64,000 nucleotides of DNA from assembly GCF_900129505.1 (NCBI RefSeq), contig NZ_LT670818.1, forward strand, positions 7,783,001 through 7,847,000, given 5' to 3'. Shown here in pieces: positions 1-15,766 of the stretch; the stretch's first letter is position 1, and the number at the start of each line of letters is the position of its first letter. The position numbers were made by a program, and so were the translations under genes. Origin of the DNA: Bradyrhizobium erythrophlei. GTDB lineage: Bacteria; Pseudomonadota; Alphaproteobacteria; Rhizobiales; Xanthobacteraceae. The notes beneath the pieces are model-generated. The model was not told where the DNA came from and did not search any database. It worked only from the letters and a program-made list of their open reading frames with translations.

Positions 1-2
1 TG

Positions 3-1592
3 ACGACAGTCCTACGAGAGCTGGGCAACAACTTCAACAATCTCCTCGTCCAATACCCCGACTACCAGATCAACATGGACACGTACTTCCATGGCAATGC
101 TGTCCTCGTCTACATGGCCAAGTTTGCTAAGAACAGTACCTGCTACAAGCCGTCAGCATACACACCCGAAACACTCGCTCTGGAGATGACCAACAACCCG
201 ACGATGACTCTTCGGGTCACTCGAAGTGACTGGCAAGCCTGCACCATCGCCATCTCGAATCCGGTCACGAAGACGAACAAAGCTGCCCTCTGGACCACGC
301 TGTCCTATTCGGCTGACGTCCTAGAACTACTCCCCTGGCCATTGATCGTCAAAGGCGAGCAGAAACCGATCTGCTACGGCGTCGAGCTGGAAGTATCAAC
401 CCAGTACACGACGAAGCAACTCGTCGAGGCATCGGATGAACCCTTCTTCGCTGGCAAGCAGGATTCGTCAATCTCCGGTACGATGAGGAACAAGGTCGAA
501 CTCGTCACGGCTCCAATGTCTTTGAAATCGCACAAGAAGGAGTGGTCACATCTCTTCTCAAACCTCGACTACGATCTCTTCGATACGACGGTCGACACGA
601 ACAACGGGATGCACGTCCACATCGGACGTGAACACTTCAACGACAACCATCTCCGTACGTTCGCCTGGTTCTTCGGCAATCCCTGCAATCTGGAGTTCAT
701 CGTCGCTCTGTCCGAGAGGAAGGCAAACCAGATGCACCAGTATGCAGCAATGCCAAGCTGGCCTGAGCAAGCAACGAAGACGAGCAGCCTGAAGTCAGTC
801 GTCGAATACTTCGACATGCTCCGAGGCGCAGTCAATCTGCACAAGTCGAAGCCGACCGTCGAAGTCCGCATCTTCAAAGGGATAGCATCATACGCCACCA
901 TCCTGAAGAATCTTGAAGTCGTCGACGCCATCTTCCACTTCACCCAGCAGTCTTCCCAGACGGCCTCCGGCCTGCGTGAGTTCCTGAACTTCCTTCGCAA
1001 GACACCGAGGAACAAGTACCCAGTCCTCAAAGAGTTCATCGCCACGCTGGACACGAAGAAGATGCTGTCAGCAGCGCAGCTGAACGACCTCGTCTTCAAC
1101 GTGAAAGATCCCCGGCAGATCCTGTCCATCATCGAGAAGAAGCACTTCCCGATCACGAGCCACCATGTCTCCATCCTGAACGCGAAGCAAGGAGTACGTA
1201 CCTTCATCTTTAATAAGGACACCGGAACGATTGAGATCGTCCGAACGAAGCACGGCAGGATGAGCCACCTGGACCGTGTCCTGGAAAAGAAGTACACGCG
1301 AAGCATTCAGCCACGAGCACCAGTAACAGACACTCCAGAGCCAGCGCCGAACTGGTACGAGCCAACCGCCCAGGCTGCAGCTCCCCGCTCAGTCGGCTTG
1401 TCGACCGCCTCACTTCGCCGCGCCCAGGCTGCTCTCCGATCAGCCAACGTCGCACCCCCGTATCATATCATGGACGACATGGTCTCACGTTCTGCCGAAT
1501 ACCAGGCGGACCTAGGCGCAATCCTCGACCAAGCACTCCAACCGCCAATCCAATGGTCTTCCATCTCCGACTCCAACGACGTTAACTTCTAA
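3..1592 (+). CDS. Phage amidoligase (COOH-NH2 ligase family), 5' end outside window
   Basis: The reading frame is open to the left window edge and reads as good protein before the first ATG at 75, so the gene is probably truncated. From the ATG it has 505 residues. Motifs of the glutamine synthetase-like amidoligase fold are visible: YGVELEVS near residue 100, GKQDSSI near 126, VELVTAP near 139, GMHVHIGREHF near 180 and VEVRIFKG near 265. These enzymes join a carboxyl group to an amine using ATP. The last 90 residues are rich in Ala and Pro and look like a linker. A class II glutamine amidotransferase follows after 14 bases and a gamma-glutamylcyclotransferase-like gene after that, which suggests one modification pathway. 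Substrate unknown. Confidence 0.85.
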   Translation, partial: TTVLRELGNNFNNLLVQYPDYQINMDTYFHGNAVLVYMAKFAKNSTCYKPSAYTPETLALEMTNNPTMTLRVTRSDWQACTIAISNPVTKTNKAALWTTLSYSADVLELLPWPLIVKGEQKPICYGVELEVSTQYTTKQLVEASDEPFFAGKQDSSISGTMRNKVELVTAPMSLKSHKKEWSHLFSNLDYDLFDTTVDTNNGMHVHIGREHFNDNHLRTFAWFFGNPCNLEFIVALSERKANQMHQYAAMPSWPEQATKTSSLKSVVEYFDMLRGAVNLHKSKPTVEVRIFKGIASYATILKNLEVVDAIFHFTQQSSQTASGLREFLNFLRKTPRNKYPVLKEFIATLDTKKMLSAAQLNDLVFNVKDPRQILSIIEKKHFPITSHHVSILNAKQGVRTFIFNKDTGTIEIVRTKHGRMSHLDRVLEKKYTRSIQPRAPVTDTPEPAPNWYEPTAQAAAPRSVGLSTASLRRAQAALRSANVAPPYHIMDDMVSRSAEYQADLGAILDQALQPPIQWSSISDSNDVNF

Positions 1593-1606
1593 GGAATCTG
1601 CAGAAC

Positions 1607-2860
1607 ATGTGCGTCATCATTCATCGTTTGCCGAACATTATCATCCCCTCAGACAAGATCGAGTCCGCCTGTATCGTTAACGCTGACGGCTTCGGGCTGG
1701 CCGTTGCCGACCGGGGCAAGATCGAACTGATCAAGGAACTGAACCCGAAAGGTAATGATCCAGAGCGAGTACTCAAACTCCTCGAAGAGACGAAGGATCT
1801 GCCCATCCTTCTTCACCTCCGATACAAGACAGTCGGTGCAGTGAACGAAGCGAACTGCCACCCCTTCGTTGTGACGACAGACGCAGACGACGGCATCGAC
1901 ATCGTCATGTGTCACAACGGCACGATGAACCAGTTCAATATCACTGGCAACGACTTCTCCGACAGCTACATGTTTAACGAGATGCTGCTGAAGCCGCTGC
2001 TCGAACGCAGTCTCTGCTCCCCCGACGTCGACCCGGAAGCAGTCCTGGACGACGAACTACTCCAGCTCGTCCTGAACGAGTTCGTTCCCTCGTCATCCAT
2101 CGTCTCTCTTCTCGACGGGAACGGGAAGTCACTCCACATCCACGAGACGTCCGGCTTCGAACACGAAGGATGGTGGAGTAGTAACAACTACTCATTCAAT
2201 ACCCAGCACAGGGTTAAGAGTGTCACCACGTTTCCCAACTCAACCACGACCTACTACGGCAGTGGAGCAATGGGTAGCTGGGAGGACGCATGGGATGACG
2301 CCAACGCAGATCAAGAGCCTGAAGCGGCAGGGAGTGCTGACTACGAAGCAATGCAAAATGGCAATTACTCGTCAGTATCGGGAGCAAAAGGACATTCGGG
2401 AATTACAAACGCGCTTCCCACAAATATACCAACTACTTACGACGACTCAGACACCAATCGTAACGCAGGACGAGCAGAGGAGTTCACCAAGATCCGAGAC
2501 ACCATTACCGAGATTCGCGGAAGTCCCTGTCCCTCTAACTCAATGCTCCGACTGGCAACATCTGATCGACCGAACTTTGCCACCATCTGTCGCCTCAACA
2601 ATCTCAAAGAAGTCTGTCGACTGGAGCGCGAGGACATTACCGAACTCGTGTTCTTCTACCCCGAGGCTACAATTGTCCTGATCCAAGACCTCCTCCGCGA
2701 GCTGTACATAAAGCCTCACTTGAAAGTGACGAAAGCAATGGACGACGCAGCAGAGTTCAGGGACCAGGAGAAGAAGAAGGGGACAGCACTCGTCGTCCTT
2801 CCCAGCGTGGACAAGGTCCTGGCTGAACTCGCATCGGGCGAAGCCTGCACTCACCATTAG
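1607..2860 (+). CDS. Class II (Ntn) glutamine amidotransferase-like protein
   Basis: The protein starts MCVIIHRLPN, so after Met removal Cys2 would be the N-terminal nucleophile typical of class II amidotransferases. Other family features are LLHLRYKTVGAV near residue 70, HPFVV near 85 and CHNGTM near 101. The catalytic domain covers roughly residues 1-200. It is followed by an acidic, low-complexity linker (about 215-300) and a separate C-terminal domain (about 300-417) of unknown role. Length is 417 residues. An AAGGAA ribosome site precedes the ATG. The gene lies 14 bases after the amidoligase. It could supply ammonia from glutamine or hydrolyse an amide made by the amidoligase; the sequence does not decide. 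Confidence 0.85.
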   Translation: MCVIIHRLPNIIIPSDKIESACIVNADGFGLAVADRGKIELIKELNPKGNDPERVLKLLEETKDLPILLHLRYKTVGAVNEANCHPFVVTTDADDGIDIVMCHNGTMNQFNITGNDFSDSYMFNEMLLKPLLERSLCSPDVDPEAVLDDELLQLVLNEFVPSSSIVSLLDGNGKSLHIHETSGFEHEGWWSSNNYSFNTQHRVKSVTTFPNSTTTYYGSGAMGSWEDAWDDANADQEPEAAGSADYEAMQNGNYSSVSGAKGHSGITNALPTNIPTTYDDSDTNRNAGRAEEFTKIRDTITEIRGSPCPSNSMLRLATSDRPNFATICRLNNLKEVCRLEREDITELVFFYPEATIVLIQDLLRELYIKPHLKVTKAMDDAAEFRDQEKKKGTALVVLPSVDKVLAELASGEACTHH

Positions 2861-2936
2861 AACGCTTCCTTCGGAAACTTAGGGTGAAACGGTAATTTCA
2901 TCGCAAAAATTTTAGCCCAAAATCAGGATTCGCCCC

Positions 2937-3515
2937 ATGATGCCAATCGCCACGCTCGTCTCCGGCAAGGTCGAAGACAATTATTACACGCCTGACATGC
3001 CCGACTTGTATTCGAAGCGGCGTCACCTCCTCTTCGTCTACGGTACGTTGAAGAAGGGATTCAATCGTCATGGTCTTCTCCTCCAGAAGAAGCCGCTGTT
3101 CGTAGGCGACGGTTGGACGGTCGCCCCCTGGTTCAACATGGAATACACGAAGGGGAAGAATCCATACCCCATCGTACTGAAGACCGACTTCATCAACGGC
3201 GGCAAGATCCACGGCGAAGTCTACCTCGTCCCGCCCGAGACCATCGTCCAGTGTGACTTCTATGAGAGCAACGGGACGTACTACAACCGGATGAAGACAG
3301 CCATCGATATTACTAACGCAAACAACCCGACGATCCCGTTGACGATTGGCTGCTGGATCTACGAGGGCAACCAGGAGTATTGGGCCGAGTACAAAAAGAA
3401 GCAGACGACACGCCAAGCAGACCCATTGAAAAGAAATAAGGACGGGAAGAAGTACTTCACGTTCATGAAGAAATACGCGAATGGAACATCGAATGCTACG
3501 CTGCGAAGTATGTGA
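2937..3515 (+). CDS. Gamma-glutamylcyclotransferase-like (AIG2/GGCT fold) protein
   Basis: The 192-residue protein shows the GGCT signature FVYGTLKKG at residues 33-41 and a likely catalytic Glu in CDFYES (Glu110). GGCT enzymes release gamma-glutamyl amines as 5-oxoproline plus the free amine. Two ATGs (2937 and 2940) are possible, preceded by AGGA. It is third in line after amidoligase and amidotransferase, with a 76-base gap that shows no clear terminator. In that setting it may remove or trim the amide made by the first enzyme. The fold call is strong; the role is inference. Confidence 0.85.
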   Translation: MMPIATLVSGKVEDNYYTPDMPDLYSKRRHLLFVYGTLKKGFNRHGLLLQKKPLFVGDGWTVAPWFNMEYTKGKNPYPIVLKTDFINGGKIHGEVYLVPPETIVQCDFYESNGTYYNRMKTAIDITNANNPTIPLTIGCWIYEGNQEYWAEYKKKQTTRQADPLKRNKDGKKYFTFMKKYANGTSNATLRSM

Positions 3516-3678
3516 CTTCACGACTCAAGAAGGATCATCCTACGCAGGACTACCACCGAACAAACAGAATTGGGTTCAGTACAGGAAAGAATTTCACGGC
3601 ACTTATTGTAAGTCCTGCGCTTCCAGCATGACGTCAGCACTCTTCACACTGGAAGAGAATGACCCAGACAAATTCTAA
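3481..3678 (+). CDS. Small zinc-finger protein
   Basis: 65 residues, or 61 if the second ATG at 3493 is used. Two CxxC pairs are present (CEVC near the start and CKSC near residue 40), spaced as in a zinc ribbon. It overlaps the end of the GGCT-like gene by 35 bases in another frame and its own end overlaps the primase start by 20 bases. That tight packing supports a real gene. No specific family recognised; it may be a nucleic-acid or protein adaptor. Confidence 0.6.
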   Translation: MEHRMLRCEVCDFTTQEGSSYAGLPPNKQNWVQYRKEFHGTYCKSCASSMTSALFTLEENDPDKF

Positions 3679-5278
3679 ATTAATCCAATCTGGTCTCCCC
3701 TGCCCCTCCCCCTTCTGTGATTCATCCGACGCCTTCTCAACGTACGACGATGGACACGGTTTCTGTTTCTCCTGCGGCACCTACGCCAAGCCTGGCAGCC
3801 CCGGTACCCCGGCAGAGAACGATCTTCAATCACCTAAGGCTAAACCTATCACGATCTCATCTGCAGCCACGTCGGCTGATAAATTCACTCACGAGTATCT
3901 TCCGTGGCGTGGCCTGAGCGCCGACACTTGTCGGTTCTACAAAGCTCTGGCCCGCATCGCTCCAGACGGGAAGCCCATTGCTATTGGTTTTCCTTACCCT
4001 GTCGGAGTCAAAGTACGAGGCTGGGAGGAAAAACGTTTCCACTCAGAGGGTGACTTCAAAGGCCCCGGCCTCTTCGGCATGGACAAGTTCAACGCTGGAC
4101 AGTCCATGTCTATCACCATTACCGAAGGAGAGACCGATGCAATGTCTGTCTTCCAGATGCTTGGAAGCAAGTATCCGGCTGTTTCTGTCCGCAGTGCTAC
4201 TTCAGCTAAGACTGACTGCGCTGCTCACCGAGATTATCTTAACTCGTTTGACAAGATCTACCTCTGTTTCGACAACGACGTTCACGGAAAGAAAGCTGCT
4301 AAGGAAGTCGCGTCACTTTTTGACTTCAATAAAGTCTACGACGTCAATCTTACAAAGCATAAAGACGCCAACGAGTATCTATCGTCTGGACAGTCCCAAG
4401 ACTTCAAAAACATATGGTTTAACGCGAAGAGATTTCTTCCTGAGGGCATTGTCTCTTCCTGGTCTGAGTTCGGAGACATCTTAGACGCACACAAGGATAA
4501 GAAGTCGTACCCAATCCCCTTCGCTCAACTGAATGAGATGAACGAGGGACTACGGACAGGCGAAGTCTTCCTCGTCACTGCCATGGAAGGCATCGGCAAG
4601 ACCGAGTTCGTCCGCAGCCTGGAGTATGAACTACTACTCCACACTAACGAGAACATCGGCACAATCCATCTCGAAGAGTCCAAGGCAAGGCAGCTGAAGG
4701 CGCTAGCTGGCCTGTACCTCGAAGCCCCTGTCCATAAGAAGGACTCGTCAATCGCTACTGAGGACATCATCGCTGCAGTTAAAACCGTCACAAGACGCGA
4801 TGAGCGTCTACACATGTACTCTCATTTTGGCAGCGACGATCCTACTATCATCCTGGACACCATACGTTTCCTTGTTACGGCTTGTGACTGCAAGTTTGTC
4901 ATCCTTGATCACATCACCCTTGTTGTTACCGGCCTGGCTGGAGACGATGAACGGAAGACACTAGACATGCTCAGCACCAGGCTGGCCATGATGGTGGAAG
5001 AGCTGGACTTCTGTCTGATCCTTGTCTCCCACATCAACGACGACGGGAAGACACGAGGCTCAAGGAACATATCAAAGATTGCCCACACCTGGTTGCAGCT
5101 CAGCCGGGACGTAGAGAACGAGTCTGAAGACATCCGAAACGTGACCACCCTCCTCATCAAGAAGGCACGGTTTACCGGAGAGACCGGTCCAGCTGGCCGC
5201 CTCCGCTTCGACAAGTCCAAGTTCAAATTAGAAGAGGACAGCGGACCTGTCTTCCAACCCGTGAGCCTACCAACATGA
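3659..5278 (+). CDS. Bifunctional primase-helicase (T7 gp4-like)
   Basis: 539 residues. A zinc-binding primase domain is at the N terminus with Cys15, Cys20, Cys36 and Cys39. A TOPRIM domain follows, with TEGETDA at 155-161 and the acidic motif CFDNDVHG near 204. A RecA-like DnaB-family helicase domain fills the C-terminal half, with Walker A EGIGKTEF near 309-315 and motif VILDHIT near 417. It should unwind the fork and lay primers for the family A polymerase encoded downstream. The ATG overlaps the previous gene; its stop overlaps the next start (ATGA). Confidence 0.95.
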   Translation: MTQTNSKLIQSGLPCPSPFCDSSDAFSTYDDGHGFCFSCGTYAKPGSPGTPAENDLQSPKAKPITISSAATSADKFTHEYLPWRGLSADTCRFYKALARIAPDGKPIAIGFPYPVGVKVRGWEEKRFHSEGDFKGPGLFGMDKFNAGQSMSITITEGETDAMSVFQMLGSKYPAVSVRSATSAKTDCAAHRDYLNSFDKIYLCFDNDVHGKKAAKEVASLFDFNKVYDVNLTKHKDANEYLSSGQSQDFKNIWFNAKRFLPEGIVSSWSEFGDILDAHKDKKSYPIPFAQLNEMNEGLRTGEVFLVTAMEGIGKTEFVRSLEYELLLHTNENIGTIHLEESKARQLKALAGLYLEAPVHKKDSSIATEDIIAAVKTVTRRDERLHMYSHFGSDDPTIILDTIRFLVTACDCKFVILDHITLVVTGLAGDDERKTLDMLSTRLAMMVEELDFCLILVSHINDDGKTRGSRNISKIAHTWLQLSRDVENESEDIRNVTTLLIKKARFTGETGPAGRLRFDKSKFKLEEDSGPVFQPVSLPT

Positions 5279-5535
5279 TTGATCTTGATAAACTCCGAGA
5301 CATTTCCGCTCTCCTCACTCGTGCAGCGAATGCTCCAATGGATACCGCTTACCACGCTCTCCACAACGCCCGGTTAGATCTACACGCTGTCATCCTGCAT
5401 GAAGAACGACGCTCATTACAGAAGATACACGGGGAACGAGTCGAAGCCAGGCAGAAGCAGGCTAACACCTATCTGAATGGTGAGGCTGAACTCCAGGAGT
5501 GGAAGAAGAAGAACCCAGGCAAAGAATGCGACTGA
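5275..5535 (+). CDS. Small hypothetical phage protein
   Basis: 86 residues, mostly charged and predicted helical, rich in Arg, Glu and Lys in the second half. No family recognised. Start and stop are both coupled: ATGA overlap with the primase-helicase and TGATG overlap with the next ORF. Position inside the replication block suggests an accessory role, but nothing in the sequence states it. Confidence 0.6.
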   Translation: MIDLDKLRDISALLTRAANAPMDTAYHALHNARLDLHAVILHEERRSLQKIHGERVEARQKQANTYLNGEAELQEWKKKNPGKECD

Positions 5536-5672
5536 TGAATACGTACGAACAAGGCAGGCACAGTATGCGAGAGGACATCATCCGCAAGCTGGAGCAGGCT
5601 TACCCCGAGAACTGTGCCGAGCCGAACGACAAGGCCCAGCTGATCCTCGAAATGATCCGGCAGCTGAAATAG
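5535..5672 (+). CDS. 45-residue hypothetical phage protein
   Basis: Starts with ATG overlapping the previous TGA (TGATG) and ends with TAG three bases before a promoter-like palindrome. The product begins MNTYEQGRHS and is hydrophilic, with an amphipathic helix near MREDIIRKLE. A second in-frame ATG lies 10 codons in. No family recognised. The coupled start is the main evidence that it is real. Confidence 0.5.
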   Translation: MNTYEQGRHSMREDIIRKLEQAYPENCAEPNDKAQLILEMIRQLK

Positions 5673-5674
5673 GC

Positions 5675-5703
5675 TTGTATTCCTATACAACCTGTGGTAT
5701 ATT
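5675..5703 (+). promoter_or_regulatory. Sigma70-like promoter overlapping a palindromic operator
   Basis: TTGTAT at 5675-5680 and TATATT at 5698-5703 are separated by 17 bases, a good match to -35/-10 spacing. The -35 box is one arm of a perfect inverted repeat, TTGTAT-tcct-ATACAA (5675-5690). A repressor bound there would block polymerase. It is the only clear vegetative-type promoter in the visible phage part and would drive the endolysin, polymerase and downstream genes. Confidence 0.6.
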
Positions 5704-5732
5704 AAAGCATAAGGTCTACTGAAAGCATTGAT

Positions 5733-6482
5733 TTGACTCAACTTCCTGCTCCGTCATTTACGGAGATGTTTCCCAAGTACAATAACTGGTGGGGCCAGCT
5801 CAAAGTAGTCGCCCAGTCCCCAGCCAACCTGGCTGCAGCTAAGATCCACGCTGGCACGGCCCGCTACCAGGCCGTCGAAGCTAAGACGACAGTCCCCTGG
5901 TACGTCATCGGCCTCCTCCATATGCGGGAGAGCAACAACAACTTCCACTGCTGGCTCCATAACGGTGACCCCATGTTCAACCATGAGGGCCAACCGACCA
6001 GGACCGTCCAAGTCCCTCCGAACCGTCCACCCAATCCTGCCGTCACGTGGGAAGAAGGAGCTGTCGATGCCTTACAGGGATTCAAGCTTACACAGATCAA
6101 AGACTGGTCTGCTGAGCGCATCGCATACACAGCCGAAGCGTTCAATGGATGGGGCTACACTCTGTATCGTCACATTCCCAGTCCTTATCTGTTTGGTGGT
6201 TCATCTATTCAGCAGCGTGGCAAGTACGTCCGAGACCGTGTCTGGGATAGTACTGAGTGGGACACCCAGCTTGGAGTTCTCACTACGCTGAAGGCATTGA
6301 TGCTGATTGATCCGAGTATCGATCTTCATCCAAGCATGACTGTGACCCGTCCTGATCTCCCGCCCATCGCTCCCTACCCGACACCCAAAGCCGACCACCC
6401 GAGCCTGCCGACGCTGGCTCCGAAGCCGAGTATCTGGGTTGTGATCCTGACTGCCATCCTTTCAATCCTCAGGAAGAAATAA
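5733..6482 (+). CDS. Phage endolysin (lysozyme-like peptidoglycan hydrolase)
   Basis: 249 residues, TTG start. The block LLHMRESNNNFHCWLHNGDP (near 63-82) is typical of a phage lysozyme family in which the Glu is the likely catalytic residue; TRTVQVP and WEEGAVDAL motifs follow, as do AFNGWGY and GKYVRDRVWD. A Pro-rich linker (about 205-230) leads to a hydrophobic C-terminal segment, IWVVILTAILSIL, that could anchor it in the membrane. It is placed within replication genes rather than beside a recognisable holin, so the C-terminal anchor may regulate release. Confidence 0.85.
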   Translation: MTQLPAPSFTEMFPKYNNWWGQLKVVAQSPANLAAAKIHAGTARYQAVEAKTTVPWYVIGLLHMRESNNNFHCWLHNGDPMFNHEGQPTRTVQVPPNRPPNPAVTWEEGAVDALQGFKLTQIKDWSAERIAYTAEAFNGWGYTLYRHIPSPYLFGGSSIQQRGKYVRDRVWDSTEWDTQLGVLTTLKALMLIDPSIDLHPSMTVTRPDLPPIAPYPTPKADHPSLPTLAPKPSIWVVILTAILSILRKK

Positions 6483-6592
6483 TGGACCCAGAAGACGCTG
6501 AGTATTTCTTCGAAGACGATCCCTTCGATCATGAAGATCCAGACATCAACTACGACGACGAAGATGACGGAGAGGACTACGAACCAGTTTGA
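6482..6592 (+). CDS. Tiny, strongly acidic protein (36 residues)
   Basis: ATG overlaps the endolysin stop (TAATG) and its TGA overlaps the TTG start of the DNA polymerase (TTGA). The product is about half Asp plus Glu, starting MDPEDAEYFFEDDP and ending in a run of acidic residues and EDYEPV. It contains one His, no Lys and no Arg. Double coupling makes it likely to be translated. A DNA-mimic or polymerase partner role is possible but unproven; it may also serve only to couple translation. Confidence 0.6.
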   Translation: MDPEDAEYFFEDDPFDHEDPDINYDDEDDGEDYEPV

Positions 6593-8499
6593 GGGTTATT
6601 GCCGACTGCGAAACGAACGGCCTTGAAGGCTGTACTGAACTCTGGCTAATCGTCTGCAAGGATATCGATACTGGCATCGTCTACACCTTCCCCCATCCGA
6701 CTCAGAGTTCAGACTTTATTGCCTTCGCTTCCAACGTCACTCTGTGGATCGGCCATAATTTTCTGGGCTTTGACGCTCCCGTTATTAATCGTCTTCTACG
6801 CAGCGATGTTATCGACCTGGATACCGTTACAGATACTCTGGTGGTCAGTCGGATGGCTGACTATCAGATGGAGGGTCACAGCCTCGAAGCGTGGGGAGTA
6901 CGACTTCGGTATCCGAAAGGCGACTTCAATGATTGGAATCAGTATTCTCCGGAGATGCTTGCGTACTGCATCCAAGACGTAGAGCTGAATTACAAGGTCT
7001 ACCTCCACTTCAAACAACTCATCGACTCTCCCTTGTGGCAACGGAGCCTCAAGACTGAGCACGCGATGGTCACCATCTCCAGGGAGATGCACGACAATGG
7101 ATTCTACTTCGACATCGATGAAGCGAGACGGATCTATGACGAGATCATTGGTCAACTCGATCCTCTCGATAACGAACTCCGACGAAGCTTTCCTCCGAGG
7201 CTTAAGTTCATACGAGAAGTACACCCTCGGACTACAAAGCACGGAACATTATCTCGCACTGATTTTCGCTGGAAGACGGACGGCGATCTTTCAGATTTTT
7301 CCGAGGGAGCAACCTTTTCTCTATGTGAATGGGAAGAGTTTAATCCGGGAAGTACCCGCCAAATCGTTGAGCGTCTCAATGCTGCCGGTTGGAAACCCTA
7401 TGAGAAAACCAAAGGACACATCCAGTGTGAACGAGACCTCAATGACCATCGCACAAGGGGTGAAGTACGTGAACTGGCAGCCGCCAAGATTGATCATTAC
7501 AGACAGCTCGGTTGGAAGGTCTCAAAGGATAACCTGGATACTCTCCCTGCTGACGCTCCCGCTCCTGCTCGTCGCCTCGTACTTCGCCTTCTTTTGGCTG
7601 CGCGTGCACGAACTCTTACCGAGTGGTTTAATGCGTATAACCCAGTAACACATCGCATACACGGCACGTTTAATCACATCGGCGCTTGGACCCATCGGAT
7701 GAGCCATAACGGCCCGAACATGGCCAACGTTCCTACTGAAGACCCTCAGCATCTAGATCGCAGCATCTATTCCAACGCGATGCGGGCACTATGGTCGGTG
7801 CCCGTAGGCCGAAACCTAATCGGAGTGGACGCTGAGGGGATTCAGCTCAGGATTCTCGCCCATTACATGAACGATCCCGCTTTCATCTTTGCTGTCACGT
7901 CTGGGAGCAAAGAGGACGGTACTGATCCTCACACATTGAATAAGAACGCACTCGGACATGTCTGCAAATCCCGCGACGACGCGAAGACATTCATCTACGC
8001 CTTTCTCCTCGGCGCTGGTACAGGCAAGATCGCGTCCATCCTTGGCTGTACACTGGCTGAAGCCAAGGTTGCCAAAGACAATTTCATCGCCGCATACCCT
8101 GGTCTCCTACATCTTAAACAAACAATCATCCCGGCAGACGCAGCAGCAGGATACTTCAAAGGATTCGACGGAAGATTTGTAAAGTGTAACAGTGAACATC
8201 ACATGCTGGCTGGCTACCTCCAGAACGGAGAGTCAGTCATCATGAAAGAAGCAAGAGTTCTATGGGGCAAGGAACTAAAACGCCTCCAAATCCCATTCCT
8301 CCCAGTCAACTTCGTCCATGACGAATGGCAGACAGAAGCCTGTGACGATCTCGATACTTGTAAACAGATCGCATCTGTGCAGGCTGACGCAATCCGACAA
8401 GTCGGAGAGAGTCTTAATCTTAATTGCCCAATGGCAGGATCATACCTAAACTCCCACAAGTCCCTAGCCATCGGGGCCAACTGGAGTCTTACCCACTAA
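6589..8499 (+). CDS. Family A DNA polymerase with 3'-5' exonuclease (T7 gp5-like)
   Basis: 636 residues, TTG start with GGAGAGGA upstream. The exonuclease domain starts with the DxE motif in IADCETNG (Asp6, Glu8) and continues with WIGHNFLGFDAP and YCIQDVELNY. Polymerase motif A is GVDAEGIQLRILAHYM, motif B lies around KTFIYAFLLGAGTG, and motif C is NFVHDEW. Length is slightly below T7 polymerase (704). This should replicate the phage genome together with the primase-helicase. Its stop overlaps the next ATG (TAATG). Confidence 0.95.
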   Translation: MRVIADCETNGLEGCTELWLIVCKDIDTGIVYTFPHPTQSSDFIAFASNVTLWIGHNFLGFDAPVINRLLRSDVIDLDTVTDTLVVSRMADYQMEGHSLEAWGVRLRYPKGDFNDWNQYSPEMLAYCIQDVELNYKVYLHFKQLIDSPLWQRSLKTEHAMVTISREMHDNGFYFDIDEARRIYDEIIGQLDPLDNELRRSFPPRLKFIREVHPRTTKHGTLSRTDFRWKTDGDLSDFSEGATFSLCEWEEFNPGSTRQIVERLNAAGWKPYEKTKGHIQCERDLNDHRTRGEVRELAAAKIDHYRQLGWKVSKDNLDTLPADAPAPARRLVLRLLLAARARTLTEWFNAYNPVTHRIHGTFNHIGAWTHRMSHNGPNMANVPTEDPQHLDRSIYSNAMRALWSVPVGRNLIGVDAEGIQLRILAHYMNDPAFIFAVTSGSKEDGTDPHTLNKNALGHVCKSRDDAKTFIYAFLLGAGTGKIASILGCTLAEAKVAKDNFIAAYPGLLHLKQTIIPADAAAGYFKGFDGRFVKCNSEHHMLAGYLQNGESVIMKEARVLWGKELKRLQIPFLPVNFVHDEWQTEACDDLDTCKQIASVQADAIRQVGESLNLNCPMAGSYLNSHKSLAIGANWSLTH

Positions 8500-8720
8500 T
8501 GGATAAACGATTGTACGAAATTCATATCTCCTTCCTCGAACCGGCTGAAGCGATTATCAACGCGACCGGTAGCAGTGAGGAAGAAGTTGTATTCAACCTG
8601 CGAGCAACCCTCGACCAGGTCAAAGAGCTGAAAATCTTGAGCGTCAAAGACCTTGGTCCGTCGCCCGAGGAAGCCAGTACCGAAGCACCCGCCCCGGTAA
8701 AACCTAACCAAATTAACTAA
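8499..8720 (+). CDS. Small hypothetical phage protein
   Basis: 73 residues from the ATG that overlaps the polymerase stop (TAATG). A longer frame exists upstream but would lie inside the polymerase, so the coupled ATG is preferred. The protein is acidic with a Pro/Ala-rich C-terminal tail (EAPAPVKPNQ). No family recognised. Position between polymerase and ssDNA-binding protein suggests a replication accessory role. Confidence 0.6.
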   Translation: MDKRLYEIHISFLEPAEAIINATGSSEEEVVFNLRATLDQVKELKILSVKDLGPSPEEASTEAPAPVKPNQIN

Positions 8721-8736
8721 AGCCTAGGATCAATTT

Positions 8737-9159
8737 TTGACTACATATTTCTTCTCCGGTATCGCCAAGTGGGCGAGCCGTAAGCCTGGTAAGTTCGACA
8801 AGTACACGATCGATATGTACTTCGACGACGAAAGCTTGGCTCTCTTCAAGACGAGTGGCATCCGAGTGTCCCCTAAGACCGACAATGACGGAGACACATT
8901 CTACAAACTGTCCCGTCACATTGACCTGACTAAGAAGGATGGGACGAAGATCGACCTCGGTCCTCCGAAGTTCCTCAACCCAGACGGTACCGAGTTTGCT
9001 GGTAACGTTGGTAACGGAAGCACGGTCACCATCAAGGTAGACGTCTACGATACTGGCGCTGGCAAGGGTCATCGTTGGGAAGCCCTCCGAGTGGACGAAC
9101 TGGTTGAATACAATCCGACGACCGCAGTCAACGCTCCGGCAGTCGGTCTCCCCTTCTAA
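8737..9159 (+). CDS. Phage single-stranded DNA-binding protein
   Basis: 140 residues, TTG start with AGGA six bases upstream. The pattern IDMYFDDESLALFKTSG, then LGPPKFLNPDG, GNGSTVTIKVDVYD and an acidic end matches the OB-fold ssDNA-binding family common near phage RecB/Cas4-like exonucleases. It would coat single strands during replication and recombination. A noncoding gap follows and then the exonuclease gene. Confidence 0.8.
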   Translation: MTTYFFSGIAKWASRKPGKFDKYTIDMYFDDESLALFKTSGIRVSPKTDNDGDTFYKLSRHIDLTKKDGTKIDLGPPKFLNPDGTEFAGNVGNGSTVTIKVDVYDTGAGKGHRWEALRVDELVEYNPTTAVNAPAVGLPF

Positions 9160-9366
9160 TCGGAAGAGGTTAGGAAGGTTGGCACCTTCCGTAAATCGCG
9201 GGCCACGCGGAGCCCCTCCTCACCTAAACAGGCTGAAGTAATGTGTCAGCCTGGGATGCAGCTTAACTGATCAGGCGCTTTGGTACACCAACTTGGCTGG
9301 ATAACGTCTCCAGTCACTGCCTTCTCACGAGTCATCCTGAACCTGCATCTACCCTCTAGGACCTAA
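9160..9366 (+). other. Noncoding gap with predicted stem-loops
   Basis: This 207-base stretch is the only sizeable gap in the visible prophage run before the integrase. A perfect hairpin GGAAGGT-tggc-ACCTTCC is at about 9174-9191, followed by a short CGCG/CGCG stem. AGGT and ACCT segments around them can pair to enclose both, which resembles a folded RNA. No T-run follows, so it is not a standard terminator. It is not a tRNA. Possible small RNA, leader or processing site; no family recognised. A TAGGA ribosome site precedes the next gene. Confidence 0.35.
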
Positions 9367-10269
9367 TTGAAATCAATTTCCACGCTGATAGACGATATCT
9401 ATTCACTCTTCACCAAATCCCTCCCCTTCGACCCTCAGGATATTGAAGACTTTGGAAGACGACTTGCCACTCACGTTAGCAACCAAATCAGCCGAACCCA
9501 GAAGCCAACACTCCGACTGTCCAATCTCGGATCACCGTGTGATCGAAAGCTCTGGCTCCAGATCAACCGACCGGAGACAGCGATCCCCCTCTCCCCCCAG
9601 ACTCGATTCAAGTTTTTGTATGGAGACATTCTGGAAGAACTGGTTCTATTTCTCGCTAAGGTTTCTGGACACCGGGTACAGTCCGAACAAAAGACCGTAA
9701 GCGTTAATGGTGTCAAAGGTCACATCGACGCCATTGTTGACGGCCATCTCGTCGACGTTAAGTCTGCTAGTCCTTACTCCTTCAACAAGTTCAAATCACA
9801 TGGACTGGAAGACGACGATCCCTTCGCATACCGCGTACAGCTTGGATCATACCTCGAAGCCAACCAAGACAACCCGGACCTAAAGGATAAGGACACAGCG
9901 TCCTTCCTAGCCGTTGATAAGACGCTAGGTCACATGGTTCTTGATACTCACGGAAAGACAGACACTGACTATGCAGCTCTCGCAGATTCTAAGAGAGATA
10001 TGCTTGCTCTTCCCTCCCCTCCAGACAGACCCTTCGCTGCAAAGCCTGATGGAAAGTCTGGAAACGAAACCCTCCAAACCATCTGCAGCTATTGTGACCA
10101 CCGATTTGATTGCTGGTCCGACATTGATAACGGGAAAGGTCTCCGCACATTTCTTTACAGCACAGGACCTAAGTTTCTTACCAAAGTAGTCAAGCAGCCG
10201 AACGTTATCGAAGTCAACCAAGCCGGAGAGATAGTCTCACCTCCCCCACAGCCAGGCGATCCCTTCTGA
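9367..10269 (+). CDS. PD-(D/E)XK exonuclease, Cas4/RecB-like with likely Fe-S cluster
   Basis: 300 residues, TTG start. The nuclease motif is GHIDAIVDGHLVDVKSAS (Asp then D-x-K). Four cysteines sit as in Fe-S Cas4/AddB nucleases: Cys58 in LGSPCDRKLW and a C-terminal trio Cys240, Cys243 and Cys249 (CSYCDHRFDC). In phages this family works with an ssDNA-binding protein in DNA processing and recombination, which fits the neighbour. There is no CRISPR context here. The stop overlaps the presumed start of the endonuclease VII gene. Confidence 0.85.
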   Translation: MKSISTLIDDIYSLFTKSLPFDPQDIEDFGRRLATHVSNQISRTQKPTLRLSNLGSPCDRKLWLQINRPETAIPLSPQTRFKFLYGDILEELVLFLAKVSGHRVQSEQKTVSVNGVKGHIDAIVDGHLVDVKSASPYSFNKFKSHGLEDDDPFAYRVQLGSYLEANQDNPDLKDKDTASFLAVDKTLGHMVLDTHGKTDTDYAALADSKRDMLALPSPPDRPFAAKPDGKSGNETLQTICSYCDHRFDCWSDIDNGKGLRTFLYSTGPKFLTKVVKQPNVIEVNQAGEIVSPPPQPGDPF

Positions 10270-10625
10270 CGAGGGCATACCGGCTCCGGAAAATCTACGG
10301 CATAACCGAGGAACAATATGCGGAAATACTTCTACGACAAATGGGACGCTGCGGCGTTTGTAAACGACCACATCAAGAATTTAGGACCAACCTTGCTGTT
10401 GACCATGACCATCACACTGGAGAAATCCGGGGGCTGTTATGTATCAATTGCAACAGACGAATCATCGGAAGACACCGAACTCCAGCGGGCGAAGTTCTTC
10501 TCAGACACGCAGCTGAGTATCTAGAAGGACCGTATACCGGGTGGACAGTACCTACAAAGCCCAAGCGAAAGAGGCGAAGATCTATCTCCTCCAGAACGAC
10601 TACAAGAAAGCGATCAAGGAAGTGA
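10266..10625 (+). CDS. Recombination endonuclease VII-like (HNH) with non-ATG start
   Basis: The zinc/HNH core is GRCGVCKRP, then AVDHDHHTGEIRGLLCINC; CxxC pairs bind zinc and the DHDHHTG block is the nuclease site. Family members carry YG(I/L)T-x-E-x-Y just before the core. That motif (KIYGITEEQY) is present here but lies upstream of the first ATG at 10341. The most plausible start is CTG at 10266, overlapping the exonuclease stop as CTGA, with CAGG nine bases upstream. The enzyme resolves branched DNA. The basic C-terminal tail overlaps the next ORF by 85 bases. Confidence 0.8.
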   Translation: MTRAYRLRKIYGITEEQYAEILLRQMGRCGVCKRPHQEFRTNLAVDHDHHTGEIRGLLCINCNRRIIGRHRTPAGEVLLRHAAEYLEGPYTGWTVPTKPKRKRRRSISSRTTTRKRSRK

Positions 10626-10672
10626 AGCGTCTTGCTGAACTATTGAAGGACGTAGGCATCCTCGTTGACTAA
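10541..10672 (+). CDS. 43-residue hypothetical phage protein
   Basis: GTG start; the product begins MDSTYKAQAKEAKIYLL and is a Lys/Ala/Leu-rich amphipathic helix. It overlaps the end of the endonuclease VII gene in another frame and its stop overlaps the TTG start of the metallophosphoesterase. No family recognised. Either this ORF or the basic tail of the endonuclease could be the less constrained reading. Confidence 0.45.
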   Translation: MDSTYKAQAKEAKIYLLQNDYKKAIKEVKRLAELLKDVGILVD

Positions 10673-11438
10673 AACACATCTTATCATCCCTGACAGTCAC
10701 GCACATCCCGATCACAACAACGACCGTGCTGACTGGCTTGGACAACTCATTGCAGACGTAAAACCTGATGCTCTTATCCATATTGGTGACAGCGCCGACA
10801 TGGCTTCCCTGTCTTTGTATGACAAGGGTAAACACTCCTTTCACGGAAGAAATTACAAGGCTGATATCTCAGCACACTGTGACTTCCAAGACAGGACGTT
10901 CGCGCCGATCAAGAAGGCGAAGAGGAAGCTTCCTACTTCATACTTTTTTGTAGGCAACCACGAACACCGGATCACCCGAGCCATCGATGTAGCACCCGAG
11001 CTAGATGGTGCGATCAGTATGAAGGATCTTCAACTCAAGGAGTACTACGACGAAGTTATTGATTACACCGGAAGTACTCCAGGCGTTAGACAGATCGATG
11101 GCATCTCGTATGCACATTACTTTGTGGGAGGAATTGCGGGCCGCCCATTGGGAGGTATCCACGCCGGGTACGCCATCGCAACGAAGAAGCATTCGTCTGC
11201 AACGTGCGGGCATTCCCATCTCGTCGACTGGTCTGTTCACACGAACATTACAGGACAACAAGTCGCTGGAATGGTCGTAGGTTGCTATCAGGATTATACG
11301 AACGATTGGGCTGGCAACGAACTCGGCAAGCTTTGGTGGAGAGGTGTTGTCGTCAAGCGTAACGTGGATGGTAACGGTGGCTACGACCCCCAGTTCATCA
11401 CGCTGGACGCACTCCGAAAAGAATACGCCGTTGTATAA
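10665..11438 (+). CDS. Calcineurin-like metallophosphoesterase
   Basis: 257 residues, TTG start overlapping the previous stop. All metal-binding motifs are present: IPDSHAHPDH (DxH), HIGDSADM (GD), VGNHEHR (GNHE) and a late CGHSH. Phage members of this fold act as nucleic-acid end phosphatases or nucleotidases; the substrate here is not evident. Coupled at both ends, so part of the same transcription unit. Confidence 0.85.
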   Translation: MTKTHLIIPDSHAHPDHNNDRADWLGQLIADVKPDALIHIGDSADMASLSLYDKGKHSFHGRNYKADISAHCDFQDRTFAPIKKAKRKLPTSYFFVGNHEHRITRAIDVAPELDGAISMKDLQLKEYYDEVIDYTGSTPGVRQIDGISYAHYFVGGIAGRPLGGIHAGYAIATKKHSSATCGHSHLVDWSVHTNITGQQVAGMVVGCYQDYTNDWAGNELGKLWWRGVVVKRNVDGNGGYDPQFITLDALRKEYAVV

Positions 11439-11571
11439 ACAGATCCAAGACCTCCTAGACCTTTACACATTGTCCGAGATCCTTCTCCGAGCTGACGCGA
11501 CTGAAGAGGACGTACTTCTCTTCCTAGTCAACGAAGGCTTTCTCTCTCTCCCCGAGGTAAAACCAGTATGA
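11431..11571 (+). CDS. 46-residue hypothetical phage protein
   Basis: Read from TTG at 11431, which overlaps the metallophosphoesterase stop. The product begins MYKQIQDLLDLYTLSEILL and looks like two short amphipathic helices. An upstream ATG in the same frame lies inside the previous gene and is less likely. The next ORF starts within its stop (ATGA). No family recognised. Confidence 0.5.
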   Translation: MYKQIQDLLDLYTLSEILLRADATEEDVLLFLVNEGFLSLPEVKPV

Positions 11572-11717
11572 AAGTCGTAACCCTCCCCCCTGAGACTGTC
11601 ATCGCTGCACTCCAGCAGTACCTCCAGTCTCTCTCCATCATCAACGATGATGAGACCATCATGAAGATTTACACCCGAGGGAAATACGACTTCGATATCG
11701 AATTGAAAAAGGAATAA
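11568..11717 (+). CDS. 49-residue hypothetical phage protein
   Basis: ATG overlaps the previous TGA, and its TAA overlaps the next ATG (TAATG). The product begins MKVVTLPPETVIAAL and ends with a charged stretch DIELKKE. No family recognised; support is the coupled start and stop. Confidence 0.5.
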   Translation: MKVVTLPPETVIAALQQYLQSLSIINDDETIMKIYTRGKYDFDIELKKE

Positions 11718-11962
11718 TGGCACGCAACTACAAAAAGGAGACCGCGTATGAGGACTCCCCTACCCAGGTTAAAAGGCGTGAAGCCCGTAACCGAGCCAGA
11801 GCTAAGACGGATCGCGCAGGCAAGACGCATAAAGGCGACGGTAAAGAGGTGGACCACCAGGGGTATCATCGAACAGGAAGCCTTGATCGAGTCCCTACGA
11901 AAGTCGTCTCCAAGCACGCCAACCGCGTAAGACAACCCCCAACCAAACGAAAGCGAAGTTAA
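11717..11962 (+). CDS. Small HNH-like phage protein
   Basis: 81 residues, very basic. It begins MARNYKKE and carries an Arg-rich helix, KGDGKEVDH, and a later VVSKHANR segment. That order resembles a family of short T7-like phage proteins with a degenerate HNH motif. Only part of the HNH metal site is visible, so nuclease activity is uncertain. Coupled to both neighbours. Confidence 0.6.
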   Translation: MARNYKKETAYEDSPTQVKRREARNRARAKTDRAGKTHKGDGKEVDHQGYHRTGSLDRVPTKVVSKHANRVRQPPTKRKRS

Positions 11963-12184
11963 TTGTTTAACTGGATTAAGAACACCGAGGCTACTGTTGA
12001 GACCATCCTGTCGGGCTGGACGAAGACGATCAAGGATCTTGAGGCGCACGCTGAGGCGAAGGCTGCAGAAGCTATCGAGAATAACGCACTCGTTACATTC
12101 TACGAGGAAGCTACCAACCTGGCTAAGGCTGAAGTTGCTAAGGCTAAGGATGTAGCAGCCAAGATCAAGGCACTGTTTGCGTGA
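11963..12184 (+). CDS. Small Ala/Lys-rich coiled-coil protein
   Basis: 73 residues, TTG start immediately after the previous TAA. The sequence is Ala, Glu and Lys rich with helix-favouring repeats such as AEAKAAEAIE and AKAEVAKAKDVAAKIK, consistent with one long helix. No family recognised. Its TGA overlaps the GTG start of the next gene. Confidence 0.55.
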   Translation: MFNWIKNTEATVETILSGWTKTIKDLEAHAEAKAAEAIENNALVTFYEEATNLAKAEVAKAKDVAAKIKALFA

Positions 12185-12534
12185 TTGAAGTAGACACCCT
12201 CCTCAAGGCCCTCCCTAGGAGGATCAAGGTGGGTGCCTATGACTGGCGGGTCATCCTTAACGAGGAAGAAGCCGACATAGAGAAGTGCGGAGAGGCTGAC
12301 TTCGAACACCACGTTGTCAACCTCTGGCCTTCTCATCTCAACTCACCCGACCACGCAGTAGGCATCGTCATCCATGAACTCCTCCACGTCATCTTCGACA
12401 ATGCCGACCTCGAAGGTAACCACACGAGTCCTGATCCTGAAGAAGAGATCGTCATTGGGTTCGAACAAGGACTCGTAGCACTGTATCGAGACAATCCCAG
12501 GCTTCTCACCTGGATCAAGAAAGGTTTAAAGTAA
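12181..12534 (+). CDS. HExxH metallopeptidase-like phage protein
   Basis: 117 residues, GTG start overlapping the previous stop. The motif IVIHELLHVIFDN near residues 61-73 is a zinc HExxH site. A family of short phage proteins with this site is known, but the substrate is not known to me. Acidic Glu residues after the motif could supply the third ligand. The name is limited to what the motif supports. Confidence 0.7.
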   Translation: MIEVDTLLKALPRRIKVGAYDWRVILNEEEADIEKCGEADFEHHVVNLWPSHLNSPDHAVGIVIHELLHVIFDNADLEGNHTSPDPEEEIVIGFEQGLVALYRDNPRLLTWIKKGLK

Positions 12535-12536
12535 TC

Positions 12537-13475: not shown

Positions 13476-13495
13476 TCGCAAGTATTCACAATGAG

Positions 13496-13525
13496 AAAAA
13501 CCCTAGGGAAACCTAGGGTTTTTTT
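13496..13525 (+). terminator. Rho-independent terminator
   Basis: Perfect 12-base stem AAAAACCCTAGG / CCTAGGGTTTTT with a GAAA loop, followed by further T. It closes the rightward phage transcription unit and separates it from the integrase. The A-run on the other strand means it could work in both directions. Confidence 0.9.
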
Positions 13526-13554
13526 GTTAGAATCAATACCTTAGGAGGACGACA

Positions 13555-14538
13555 ATGCTGCTGAAACAAGTCTTTGATTCCTACATGGTTGTGTCAGGAG
13601 AAGCGCGAGGCGCTGCCTATATGGACCGCCTGATGTTCAACGCCTTCGATAAGTTCTTCCCTAAATACGTCCCCGAAATCTCGCCTGTCGATCTGACGGA
13701 TTATCTGAAGGACATGCGAGCCAAAAAGATCAAGAGGAATGGTGTTCTCCGTCCTCTCCAGCCTGCCACTTTGAACAAGCACACTCAGTTCCTTCGTCGC
13801 CTTCTCTCCCACGCTGAGGCTCTAGGTGTGACCGTACAGCGGTTTCGCTGGAAAGCCTTCCTTGTCATGGAGGCAGAGCAGAAGACGAGCTACCTGACGA
13901 TCCCAGAGGAGCACACAGCCCTCGTAGGTATGGATGACTACATCCGTCCCCTGTTCCTGTTCTCCGTCCTGTCTGGTGTCCGCCAGGCTAATGCCATCGA
14001 CCTACGGTGGGACCAGGTGGACATGGATGATCGGATCATCACCTTCCAAGCCAAGTCTCGAAGACCTGGTGGCAAGCAGTACACGGTACCGCTGACTGGG
14101 ATGATCGAAGGCGTCTTGGAAGGCGAGTGGGGCAACCACATCGACCGTGTCTTCACCTTCGTAGCGAGGAGGACAAGCCGATGGGGCTACGAGGCTGGGA
14201 AGCGATACCCGCTGACGAAGCCTCTCGTCCGCAATTACTGGGAGAAACTGGGGCTGGAGAAGCGATGGCACGACCTACGCCATACCTTCGGGACCCGGCT
14301 GTACCAAGAGAGCAAGGACATCCATCTCGTCCAGCGAGCAATGAACCACGCCGACGTCAATACGACGATGCGCTACATCCATACTGATGTGTCAGACATC
14401 AGGCAACAGATGGAAAACATGCACAATAAAGTAGCAAACTTGCATCAACAAGAACAGGTCGAGAACAAGCCTGTTCCGAAATTCTCCCGTAATTTCAAGA
14501 TGGTGCGCTCGAAAGGACTCGAACCTTCACTCGATTAA
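13555..14538 (+). CDS. int: Phage tyrosine-type integrase
   Basis: 327 residues with a strong ribosome site (AGGAGG). Catalytic residues are visible: Arg143 in SGVRQANA, His239 and Arg242 in HDLRHTFG, His265 in NHADVNT and nucleophile Tyr274 in MRYIHT. It has its own start region after a terminator, so it is expressed separately from the replication genes. The last 12 codons, Met316 to Asp327, and the stop lie within the tRNA-Leu gene, so the C terminus is supplied by the attachment site. Confidence 0.97.
   Translation: MLLKQVFDSYMVVSGEARGAAYMDRLMFNAFDKFFPKYVPEISPVDLTDYLKDMRAKKIKRNGVLRPLQPATLNKHTQFLRRLLSHAEALGVTVQRFRWKAFLVMEAEQKTSYLTIPEEHTALVGMDDYIRPLFLFSVLSGVRQANAIDLRWDQVDMDDRIITFQAKSRRPGGKQYTVPLTGMIEGVLEGEWGNHIDRVFTFVARRTSRWGYEAGKRYPLTKPLVRNYWEKLGLEKRWHDLRHTFGTRLYQESKDIHLVQRAMNHADVNTTMRYIHTDVSDIRQQMENMHNKVANLHQQEQVENKPVPKFSRNFKMVRSKGLEPSLD
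14501..14538. other. Predicted attachment core inside tRNA-Leu
   Basis: The phage integrase reading frame crosses into the tRNA 3' part, which places the crossover in or near this segment. The core cannot be sized because the second copy at the other prophage end is outside the window. Confidence 0.6.
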
Positions 14539-14585
14539 GAACTGCCACCTCAAGGCAGCGCGTCTACCAATTCCGCCACGAGCGC
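14501..14585 (-). tRNA. tRNA-Leu (anticodon GAG), prophage attachment target
   Basis: Read on the minus strand, GCGCTCG begins the acceptor stem at 14585 and pairs with CGAGCGC near the 3' end; CCA is encoded (14501-14503). The anticodon loop CTTGAGG gives GAG. The long variable arm is typical of tRNA-Leu. The gene is intact, so integration rebuilt the 3' part with phage DNA. It also contains the last codons of the integrase on the opposite strand. Confidence 0.95.
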
Positions 14586-14981: not shown

Positions 14982-15023
14982 GCAAAATTGCGTGGATTGA
15001 GATCACCACGTTATGGTTAGCCA

Positions 15024-15752: not shown

Positions 15753-15766
15753 AAGCGGCGGGCCCT

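Follow-up and report, generated by a model that had tools for sequence, protein, structure and literature searches.

Closest described cassettes and composition of the prophage locus

Phage cassettes built around an amidoligase gene are attributed to Iyer et al. 2009, and likewise to Hardies et al. 2013, by the papers that cite them. In phage UFV-P2, COOH-NH2_lig, Amidoligase_2, GATase_6, ATP-grasp and AIG2/GGCT domains are encoded shortly before the primase/helicase gene (PMC3890496), while PMC5498523 describes a seven-gene 'peptidoglycan modification cassette', which in PSA-HP1 is hypothesised to counter superinfection by remodelling the cell surface, and names RIO-1, phiEco32, 7-11, PA11, tf, MR299-2, LUZ24, PaP3 and CW02 as carriers. 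Two further papers report the cassette in another LUZ24-like phage, U17 (PMC11945000), and an amidoligase together with a GATase in OM43 phages (PMC10580990). Here, a cassette of this type was analysed in a prophage of ~49.2 kb inserted in a tRNA-Leu gene of Bradyrhizobium erythrophlei, part of which lies within the stretch of 64,000 nucleotides (nt) under study (contig NZ_LT670818.1, positions 7,783,001 to 7,847,000; referred to below as the window). The prophage block is a variant of the published LUZ24/phiEco32/RIO-1-type amidoligase cassette, termed a variant because it resides in a temperate phage, its main amidoligase carries an N-terminal extension and its second ligase is a different one. 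The cassette, or its core of amidoligase and class II glutamine amidotransferase-type protein (GAT-II), recurs in many phages, with a function that the literature only suggests. The most useful advance is a natural fusion of GAT-II with a gamma-glutamyl cyclotransferase (GGACT), which makes the chemistry testable.

The genes are arranged in the order second amidoligase, RimK-like ATP-grasp, main amidoligase, GAT-II, GGACT and CxxC protein, followed by a primase/helicase, and adjacent genes from the second amidoligase through to the primase either overlap or are separated by gaps of at most 76 nt. The second amidoligase, the ATP-grasp and the start of the main amidoligase are located upstream of the window; coordinates there refer to L005, a stretch of the same genome reaching upstream, or are counted from the window, with 0 as the base preceding window position 1. 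The features are as follows (aa, amino acids):

L005:5964-6800, upstream of the ATP-grasp gene: second amidoligase, 261-278 aa (profile comparison)
L005:6664-7599, upstream of the window and overlapping the amidoligase start: RimK-like ATP-grasp (PHROG 'ribosomal protein S6 glutaminyl transferase', E 4e-7)
1..1592 (frame 3-1592), plus strand: main amidoligase, 3' part (Amidoligase_2, E 3.7e-6)
1607..2860, plus strand: GAT-II (GATase_4, E 2.6e-7)
2937..3515, plus strand: gamma-glutamyl cyclotransferase of the GGACT/AIG2 type (PF06094, E 5.1e-16)
3481..3678, plus strand: 65-aa CxxC...CxxC protein, overlapping both neighbours (no family above cut-off)
3659..5278, plus strand: primase/helicase directly after the cassette (phrog_239, E 7.2e-132)

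An earlier note on the window, made from the letters of the DNA, had described consecutive amidoligase, GAT-II, GGACT and CxxC open reading frames (ORFs) in a prophage. All four were found where it had placed them, and the prophage was borne out by integrase, terminase and head genes together with tRNA-Leu repeats. The gene set itself was incomplete, as the second amidoligase and the ATP-grasp lie upstream and the window begins inside the main amidoligase gene. The attribution of the type to Iyer and colleagues agrees with what the citing papers state.

For comparison, a core cassette was defined from six isolates (LUZ24, phiEco32, RIO-1, CW02, PA11 and phiM6) and this prophage. All five of its elements are present here, i.e. 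an Amidoligase_2 protein with glutamine-synthetase-type residues, a GAT-II with Cys2, an ATP-grasp, a GGACT or Peptidase_C26 protein and a primase/helicase neighbour, the last of which also adjoins the cassette in each of the six isolates. Profiles of the window families detected GAT-II and ATP-grasp in all six isolates (E 5e-20 to 6e-9 for ATP-grasp) and GGACT in five, the GGACT matches of LUZ24 and phiM6 being so by construction. The main-amidoligase profile directly matched phiM6 only, while LUZ24, PA11, RIO-1 and phiEco32 are linked through PF12224 and the CW02 amidoligase is known here from its record name, 'putative amidoligase'.

The LUZ24-like phages (Bruynoghevirus; LUZ24 gp16-gp24, UFV-P2 ORF21-31) encode the same Amidoligase_2, GAT-II, RimK/ATP-grasp and GGACT proteins before the primase/helicase. 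However, their ATP-grasp gene follows that of GAT-II, whereas here it precedes the amidoligase; their second ligase is a COOH-NH2_lig protein (PF14395), whereas here it is an amidoligase relative; and their amidoligase, of 391 aa, is devoid of the N-terminal extension of ~250 residues, while their GAT is of the GATase_6 type. RIO-1-like phages/Zobellviridae (RIO-1, CW02 and PA11, with PSA-HP1 according to the paper) share the core enzymes and the primase neighbour, to which CW02 and PA11 add a Peptidase_C26 gene and all three a gene of ~160-190 aa. In phiEco32 (phi32_77-86), GGACT, ATP-grasp, GAT-II and Amidoligase_2 are likewise found beside the primase/helicase, along with a PF14395 second ligase (phi32_86), a GAT of 676 aa and a gene of the ~190-aa type (phi32_85; leave-one-out E 5e-4). 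Of the isolates retrieved, Sinorhizobium phage phiM6 (genes 67-79) has the most similar GAT-II (profile E 3.6e-52); it is ordered amidoligase, ATP-grasp, GAT-II, GGACT, CxxC protein and primase, with an extra second GAT-II and a Peptidase_C26 gene; Rhizobium phage RHph_N3_19 is similar and also has a second GAT-II. Outside phages, EgtC with EgtA (ergothioneine) and BtrJ/BtrG (butirosin) belong to metabolite pathways.

The second ligase of the prophage matched no Pfam family at E 1, and PF14395 was thus not encountered here; nor was it detected in RIO-1_10 or in phiM6 genes 72, 73, 76, 78 and 79. Since it is not universal among the isolates, PF14395 was not counted as a defining element. A further gene of ~160-205 aa, annotated as hypothetical and here called A6, is located between the ligases of the six isolates, at the following positions:

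L086:8170-8739
L098:3990-4538
L097:3675-4247
L096:7737-8219
L087:5216-5827
L099:8704-9321

Leave-one-out searches placed five of the six A6 copies in one family (E 7.5e-9 to 0.0025), LUZ24 gp17 being missed and thus a member by position only. The A6 profile matched no ORF of the prophage at E 10 and none of the 80 viral loci described below at E 1, with the limit that a diverged copy could escape a profile that also misses LUZ24 gp17.

Recurrence across viral loci

Viral contigs were scanned with the amidoligase alignment A1, by which 129 loci were confirmed and the best 80 analysed (labelled with L numbers, such as L006); pattern scans of the same contigs with single amidoligase or GAT-II sequences returned nothing, and only A1 succeeded. 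In 78 of the 80 loci, a GAT-II gene was located within 124 nt of the amidoligase gene, mostly overlapping it or a few bases apart, indicating that the pairing is not due to chance. The two loci without GAT-II were L019, which ends directly after the amidoligase, and L034, where none was present in 5 kb downstream and 58 nt upstream are covered. The expectation of the earlier note that these genes are kept together across relatives therefore holds for the amidoligase/GAT-II pair, while GGACT is kept less often (16/80); ATP-grasp was found in 12 loci.

The 11 nearest loci all exhibited the order ATP-grasp, amidoligase, GAT-II, GGACT and primase, L015 and L016 being near-copies. Among the 40 loci covering 3 kb on both sides of the amidoligase, ATP-grasp and GGACT occurred together in 12, ATP-grasp alone in none, GGACT alone in two and neither in 26. 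The Fisher test for this association (p 1.6e-8) takes no account of common descent and was given no weight, since the 11 nearest loci seem to form a single lineage. Clustering of the neighbouring families of the 80 loci recovered the amidoligase in 80, GAT-II in 73 and the primase in 24, the remaining families being present in at most 21 and mostly short. Other recurrent neighbours, such as DNA-modification genes, were sought in this clustering, in which not every family was identified, and none stood out. A known anti-phage defence system was likewise considered and set aside, as the PADLOC models returned no family for any of the six proteins at E 0.1.

GAT-II showed no 'MC' within its first 80 residues in seven of the 78 viral loci, and closer listing yielded nine frames in eight loci without the standard MC start. 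Cys comes directly after an alternative start codon in L015, L016, L080, L082 and the first GAT-II copy of L083; in L047, Cys occurs soon after a non-ATG start; the L073 protein looks like an over-long ORF, and that of L007 consists of two split frames. Locus L083 carries two GAT-II genes (8379-9218 and 10699-11460) on either side of the amidoligase, the second of which has no Cys2 at its start and is perhaps degenerate or put to another use. A weak match of the GAT-II profile to a frame in the tail region of CW02 (E 0.0048) was excluded as a chance match.

Conserved residues and predicted folds of the cassette enzymes

The ORF of the main amidoligase (L005:7559-9592) starts ~440 nt upstream of the window, at about -441 (TTG) or -435 (ATG), giving a protein of 677 aa by ORF and 675 aa in the protein database. 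It matched Pfam Amidoligase_2 (PF12224) with E 8.3e-6 and 26.3 bits, above the curated cut-off of 22. Loss of the catalytic residues of the amidoligase, raised in the earlier note as a point to examine along with conservation of Cys2 in GAT-II, was not observed: G272, E274, E276, E312, H350, H352, E433, R435 and N449 were invariant in 36/36 aligned sequences (36 of 66 database hits, self included, the remaining rows having been dropped beforehand). For GAT-II, M1, C2, R72, N104, G105 and D119 were invariant in 39/39 aligned sequences (39 of 65 database hits, self included). As read from their families, these positions look catalytic.

The main amidoligase is predicted to adopt a glutamine-synthetase-type fold, the nearest fold-search matches of the predicted structure being YbdK and glutamine synthetases. 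Relative to LUZ24 gp18 it has ~250 additional N-terminal residues, which its nearest relatives also possess; that these represent a fused LUZ24 gp17-like protein is unsupported (profile-profile probability 0.1%). Neither LUZ24 gp18, compared with the main amidoligase, nor LUZ24 gp16, compared with the second ligase, gave a profile-profile match when entered as a single sequence. Kinship with the published proteins therefore rests on Pfam and on a Foldseek match to the amidoligase of phage tf (E 7.3e-7, with a low TM-score of 0.21/0.34).

The second ligase is homologous to the main amidoligase (profile-profile probability 98.9%, E 1.4e-17), and the main-amidoligase profile independently recovered it in the same genome (E 5.3e-10). 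Its residues G25, E27, E29, E75, H114, E199 and R201 were identical in 10/10 aligned relatives. The ATP-grasp protein, which likely starts at the TTG codon at 6772 of L005, to judge from a Shine-Dalgarno-like AAGGAG, remained under the cut-off of Pfam RimK (E 0.059). In the PDB, its 12-row family profile matched cyanophycin synthase (3.5e-5), AMdnB (0.001) and alpha-L-glutamate ligases (0.008), as well as PurP (2.7e-4), which is not a peptide ligase.

The predicted GAT-II structure begins with an Ntn hydrolase domain (residues ~1-200) and is helical in its C-terminal part, the stretch between the two being modelled with low confidence. The protein possesses Cys2 and the glutamyl-binding residues, and the Ntn hydrolase fold with Cys2 is common to EgtC, GlmS and PurF. 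In the fold search, EgtC, GlmS and 1te5 were tied, so that EgtC, considered as the single best fold, is not decisive; the NCBIfam EgtC model gave 18.9 bits against a cut-off of 218.65 and was not passed. The nearest solved structure of GGACT by sequence is 3jub, AIG2-like domain-containing protein 1 (E 1.2e-4); E94 was identical in 17/17 aligned sequences, and the VYGTL motif is intact in the prophage copy. A protein similar to the CxxC protein was found in four of the six rows compared, the RCxIC and CxxC motifs being retained in L006, L007, L012 and phiM6_69 and not in LUZ24 gp23 or phiM6_68. The role in substrate choice suggested for this protein in the earlier note is putative.

Single-chain GAT-II/GGACT proteins and Peptidase_C26

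In a tblastn search, the window GAT-II matched a phage C75C1 gene (L100:6001-6897) whose annotation reads cyclotransferase and which an Amidoligase_2 gene (E 3.5e-30) precedes by 0.85 kb. The product of this C75C1 gene, of 298 aa, comprises a GAT-II domain and a GGACT domain (E 2.7e-21) in one chain, and it retains the GAT-II Cys2, Arg, NG and Asp, the usual HNG being SNG. The same fusion was present in twelve viral contigs (L102-L113), amounting with C75C1 to 13 loci in five clusters at 90% identity, and an amidoligase was located upstream of it in 11 of the 13; the other two, L104 and L113, cover only ~1.3-1.6 kb upstream.

Pfam GATase_4 remained under its cut-off of 23 bits in three of the five fusions scanned (C75C1, 21.9; MW202828, 22.5; L105, 20.4) and was not reported for L110 and L112 at E 0.001. 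The window-family GAT-II profile matched all 13 fusions (E 2e-24 to 2e-18; C75C1, 1.9e-24), and the GAT-II domain is assigned because of these matches and the retained residues. A further record, MW202828, contains both domains and is preceded by a 574-aa ORF without a Pfam hit. No report of a GAT-II/GGACT fusion was found among the open-licence papers searched.

Three of the six isolates encode a Peptidase_C26 protein (PA11 gp1, E 1e-16; CW02 gp2, 4e-17; phiM6_79, 3e-10), a family that includes gamma-glutamyl hydrolases; in PA11, the GGACT profile found no match in bases 1-49,000 of 49,639. Together, the fusion and Peptidase_C26 as a second putative cutting fold point to the gamma-glutamyl amide bond as the probable shared chemistry. 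The natural fusion and this unrelated gamma-glutamyl-cutting family narrow the chemistry enough for a direct test with purified proteins, and the prophage copy provides a temperate system in which the cassette could be deleted and the lysogen induced.

Proposed function and alternative explanations

The gene set and its order, the conserved residues, the predicted folds and the recurrence beside primase/helicase genes constitute the established part of the explanation. The best explanation overall, which we regard as reasonably probable, is that the locus is a temperate-phage variant of the known cassette that makes, and then trims or removes, gamma-glutamyl groups. Both amidoligases and the RimK-like ATP-grasp would couple amino-acid carboxylates to amines at the expense of ATP, with at least one ligase presumably acting via the gamma-carboxylate of glutamate, and GGACT, probably with the Ntn domain of GAT-II, would re-cleave gamma-glutamyl amides. 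Gamma-glutamyl groups would thus be put on, and then trimmed or removed from, a cytoplasmic acceptor during lytic growth; the cassette is co-directed with the replication genes, which suggests lytic rather than lysogenic expression. As acceptor, peptidoglycan precursors, as published, are a tentative guess, a protein or peptide tag a doubtful one and a small metabolite an unlikely one, with DNA being very improbable. The cycle of making, supplying and removing put forward in the earlier note, already published for other phages, stands in outline; the supply role that it gave to GAT-II is less certain, in view of the EgtC/GlmS fold tie and the GAT-II/GGACT fusion.

Several observations weigh against the make-and-remove explanation. 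GGACT is not obligatory in the cassette: the commonest state, at 62/80 loci, is a GAT-II without a GGACT match beside the amidoligase, although many of these contigs are short. Of the 16 loci with a GGACT match, L075 and L079 have weak, distant pieces on the opposite strand. In L008, L009, L010, L012 and phiM6 the VYGTL motif is changed, with the conserved Glu retained and the gene still in place. The fusion loci do without the full set, as no ATP-grasp match was obtained in the stretches covered, and the predicted fold ties of GAT-II (EgtC, GlmS and 1te5) do not separate ammonia-donating from hydrolysing members. The fold matches of the main amidoligase also include a protein named amidoligase from Catovirus, which infects eukaryotes (Foldseek E 3.5e-5); this suggests that the fold family is not tied to peptidoglycan-bearing hosts and disfavours peptidoglycan as the only target. 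The literature search retrieved no reported substrate or product for any cassette member.

Alternatively, GAT-II could be a true amidotransferase that hydrolyses glutamine and passes ammonia to the glutamine-synthetase-fold amidoligase, which would amidate a carboxylate (e.g. of peptidoglycan stem peptides, as in MurT/GatD-type amidation), with GGACT recycling by-products. This is a possibility to be taken seriously without being expected: the amidoligase is almost always accompanied by GAT-II (78/80 loci), far more often than by GGACT (16/80), the amidoligase fold is nearest to YbdK and to glutamine synthetases, the latter of which use ammonia, and GlmS and PurF match GAT-II nearly as well as EgtC does. 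Yet a single ORF hit by the GAT-II profile as well as the amidoligase profile was absent from the 80 loci, while it is the GAT-II/GGACT fusion that recurs, and ammonia supply is weakened by a fused GAT-II domain without a synthetase partner in its chain. The recurrent single-chain protein instead suggests that GAT-II may act on the substrate of GGACT. In a more specific and rather speculative form of the make-and-remove explanation, the cassette would be a gamma-glutamyl protect-and-remove (or reversible tag) pathway rather than one of ammonia-driven amidation, with GAT-II as a gamma-glutamyl hydrolase/transferase sharing the GGACT substrate. If true, viruses would be putting the GAT-II domain to a novel use, and phages with the cassette would share one chemical signature, the release of 5-oxoproline or glutamate.

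The other alternatives concern the purpose of the modification. Superinfection exclusion through an altered host surface, the published peptidoglycan-modification reading, was hypothesised for PSA-HP1 and relatives (PMC5498523) and adopted for OM43 phages (PMC10580990) and U17 (PMC11945000); a paper on Clostridium prophages words it as demonstrated for phiEco32, citing the 2009 computational paper, and peptidoglycan amidation by MurT/GatD offers an amidation precedent (PMC3267633). The reading is nonetheless doubtful for this locus, where the genes lie among the replication genes, co-oriented with the primase, and lytic expression would be expected, and a search of open-licence papers turned up no experiments on the genes of the cassette. 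In a protein-tagging scheme, the RimK-like ligase and the amidoligases would modify a host protein (ribosome or RNA polymerase) with amino acids, thereby redirecting the host, with GGACT/GAT-II trimming the tag; the PHROG ATP-grasp family is named for ribosomal protein S6 modification, the ATP-grasp profile weakly matches alpha-L-glutamate ligases and tubulin polyglutamylases, and the pupylation enzymes PafA and Dop appeared in the fold search (E 0.007-0.02). Every one of these matches is weak, at the sequence or the fold level, and GGACT-type enzymes use small gamma-glutamyl amines and are not known to act on intact proteins, which renders such tagging unlikely. Auxiliary nitrogen metabolism, in which ammonium would be channelled into glutamate-derived amino acids or glutathione-like peptides, was proposed for Phage-ZRK32 (stutzeri 273, nitrate or ammonium; PMC10945688), where the link from gene to growth is the authors' speculation. 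Three ligases together with removal enzymes would exceed the needs of nitrogen assimilation, and we consider this explanation improbable.

Prophage boundaries and neighbouring genes

The host phage is temperate and podovirus-type, with PHROG matches in the prophage to an integrase, a terminase large subunit, a head-tail adaptor and a major head protein. Its attachment repeats are imperfect copies of the 3' end of the tRNA-Leu gene. The repeats and further prophage genes are located as follows:

About -34629 to -34577 relative to the window: left attachment repeat (53-bp match, 79% identity to the right copy)
14501..14553: right attachment repeat, inside the tRNA-Leu gene 14501-14585, minus strand (ARAGORN for the tRNA; 53-bp match)
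13555..14538, plus strand: prophage integrase at the right end (phrog_1, E 2.1e-38)
9367-10269: Cas4-domain exonuclease
10665-11438: metallophosphoesterase
12564-12905: nucleoside 2-deoxyribosyltransferase-like protein
13107-13475: dATP/dGTP pyrophosphohydrolase-like protein

GC content was 50-55% over window positions 1-14000, compared with 61-67% over 14001-24000, right of the prophage. When the amidoligase profile was run against 391 genomes of the same family and 397 of the same order, the B. erythrophlei genome itself was the sole match in each set, and the cassette is therefore phage cargo rather than host metabolism. A pattern-based scan of genome contigs with A1 gave zero matches, and the phage collection contained no nucleotide relative of window positions 1-8000.

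Identity of 79% over 53 bp between the attachment repeats is not expected for a recent integration. An exact 15-bp copy of a piece of the tRNA-Leu gene (14528-14542) was also observed in the middle of the prophage, at about -8453 to -8439, near the switch in gene direction. In the host part of the window, the gene at 59045-60481, by reading of the sequence alone, resembles a glutamine-synthetase-type enzyme and adjoins a Rieske-oxygenase-like gene (60513-61865).

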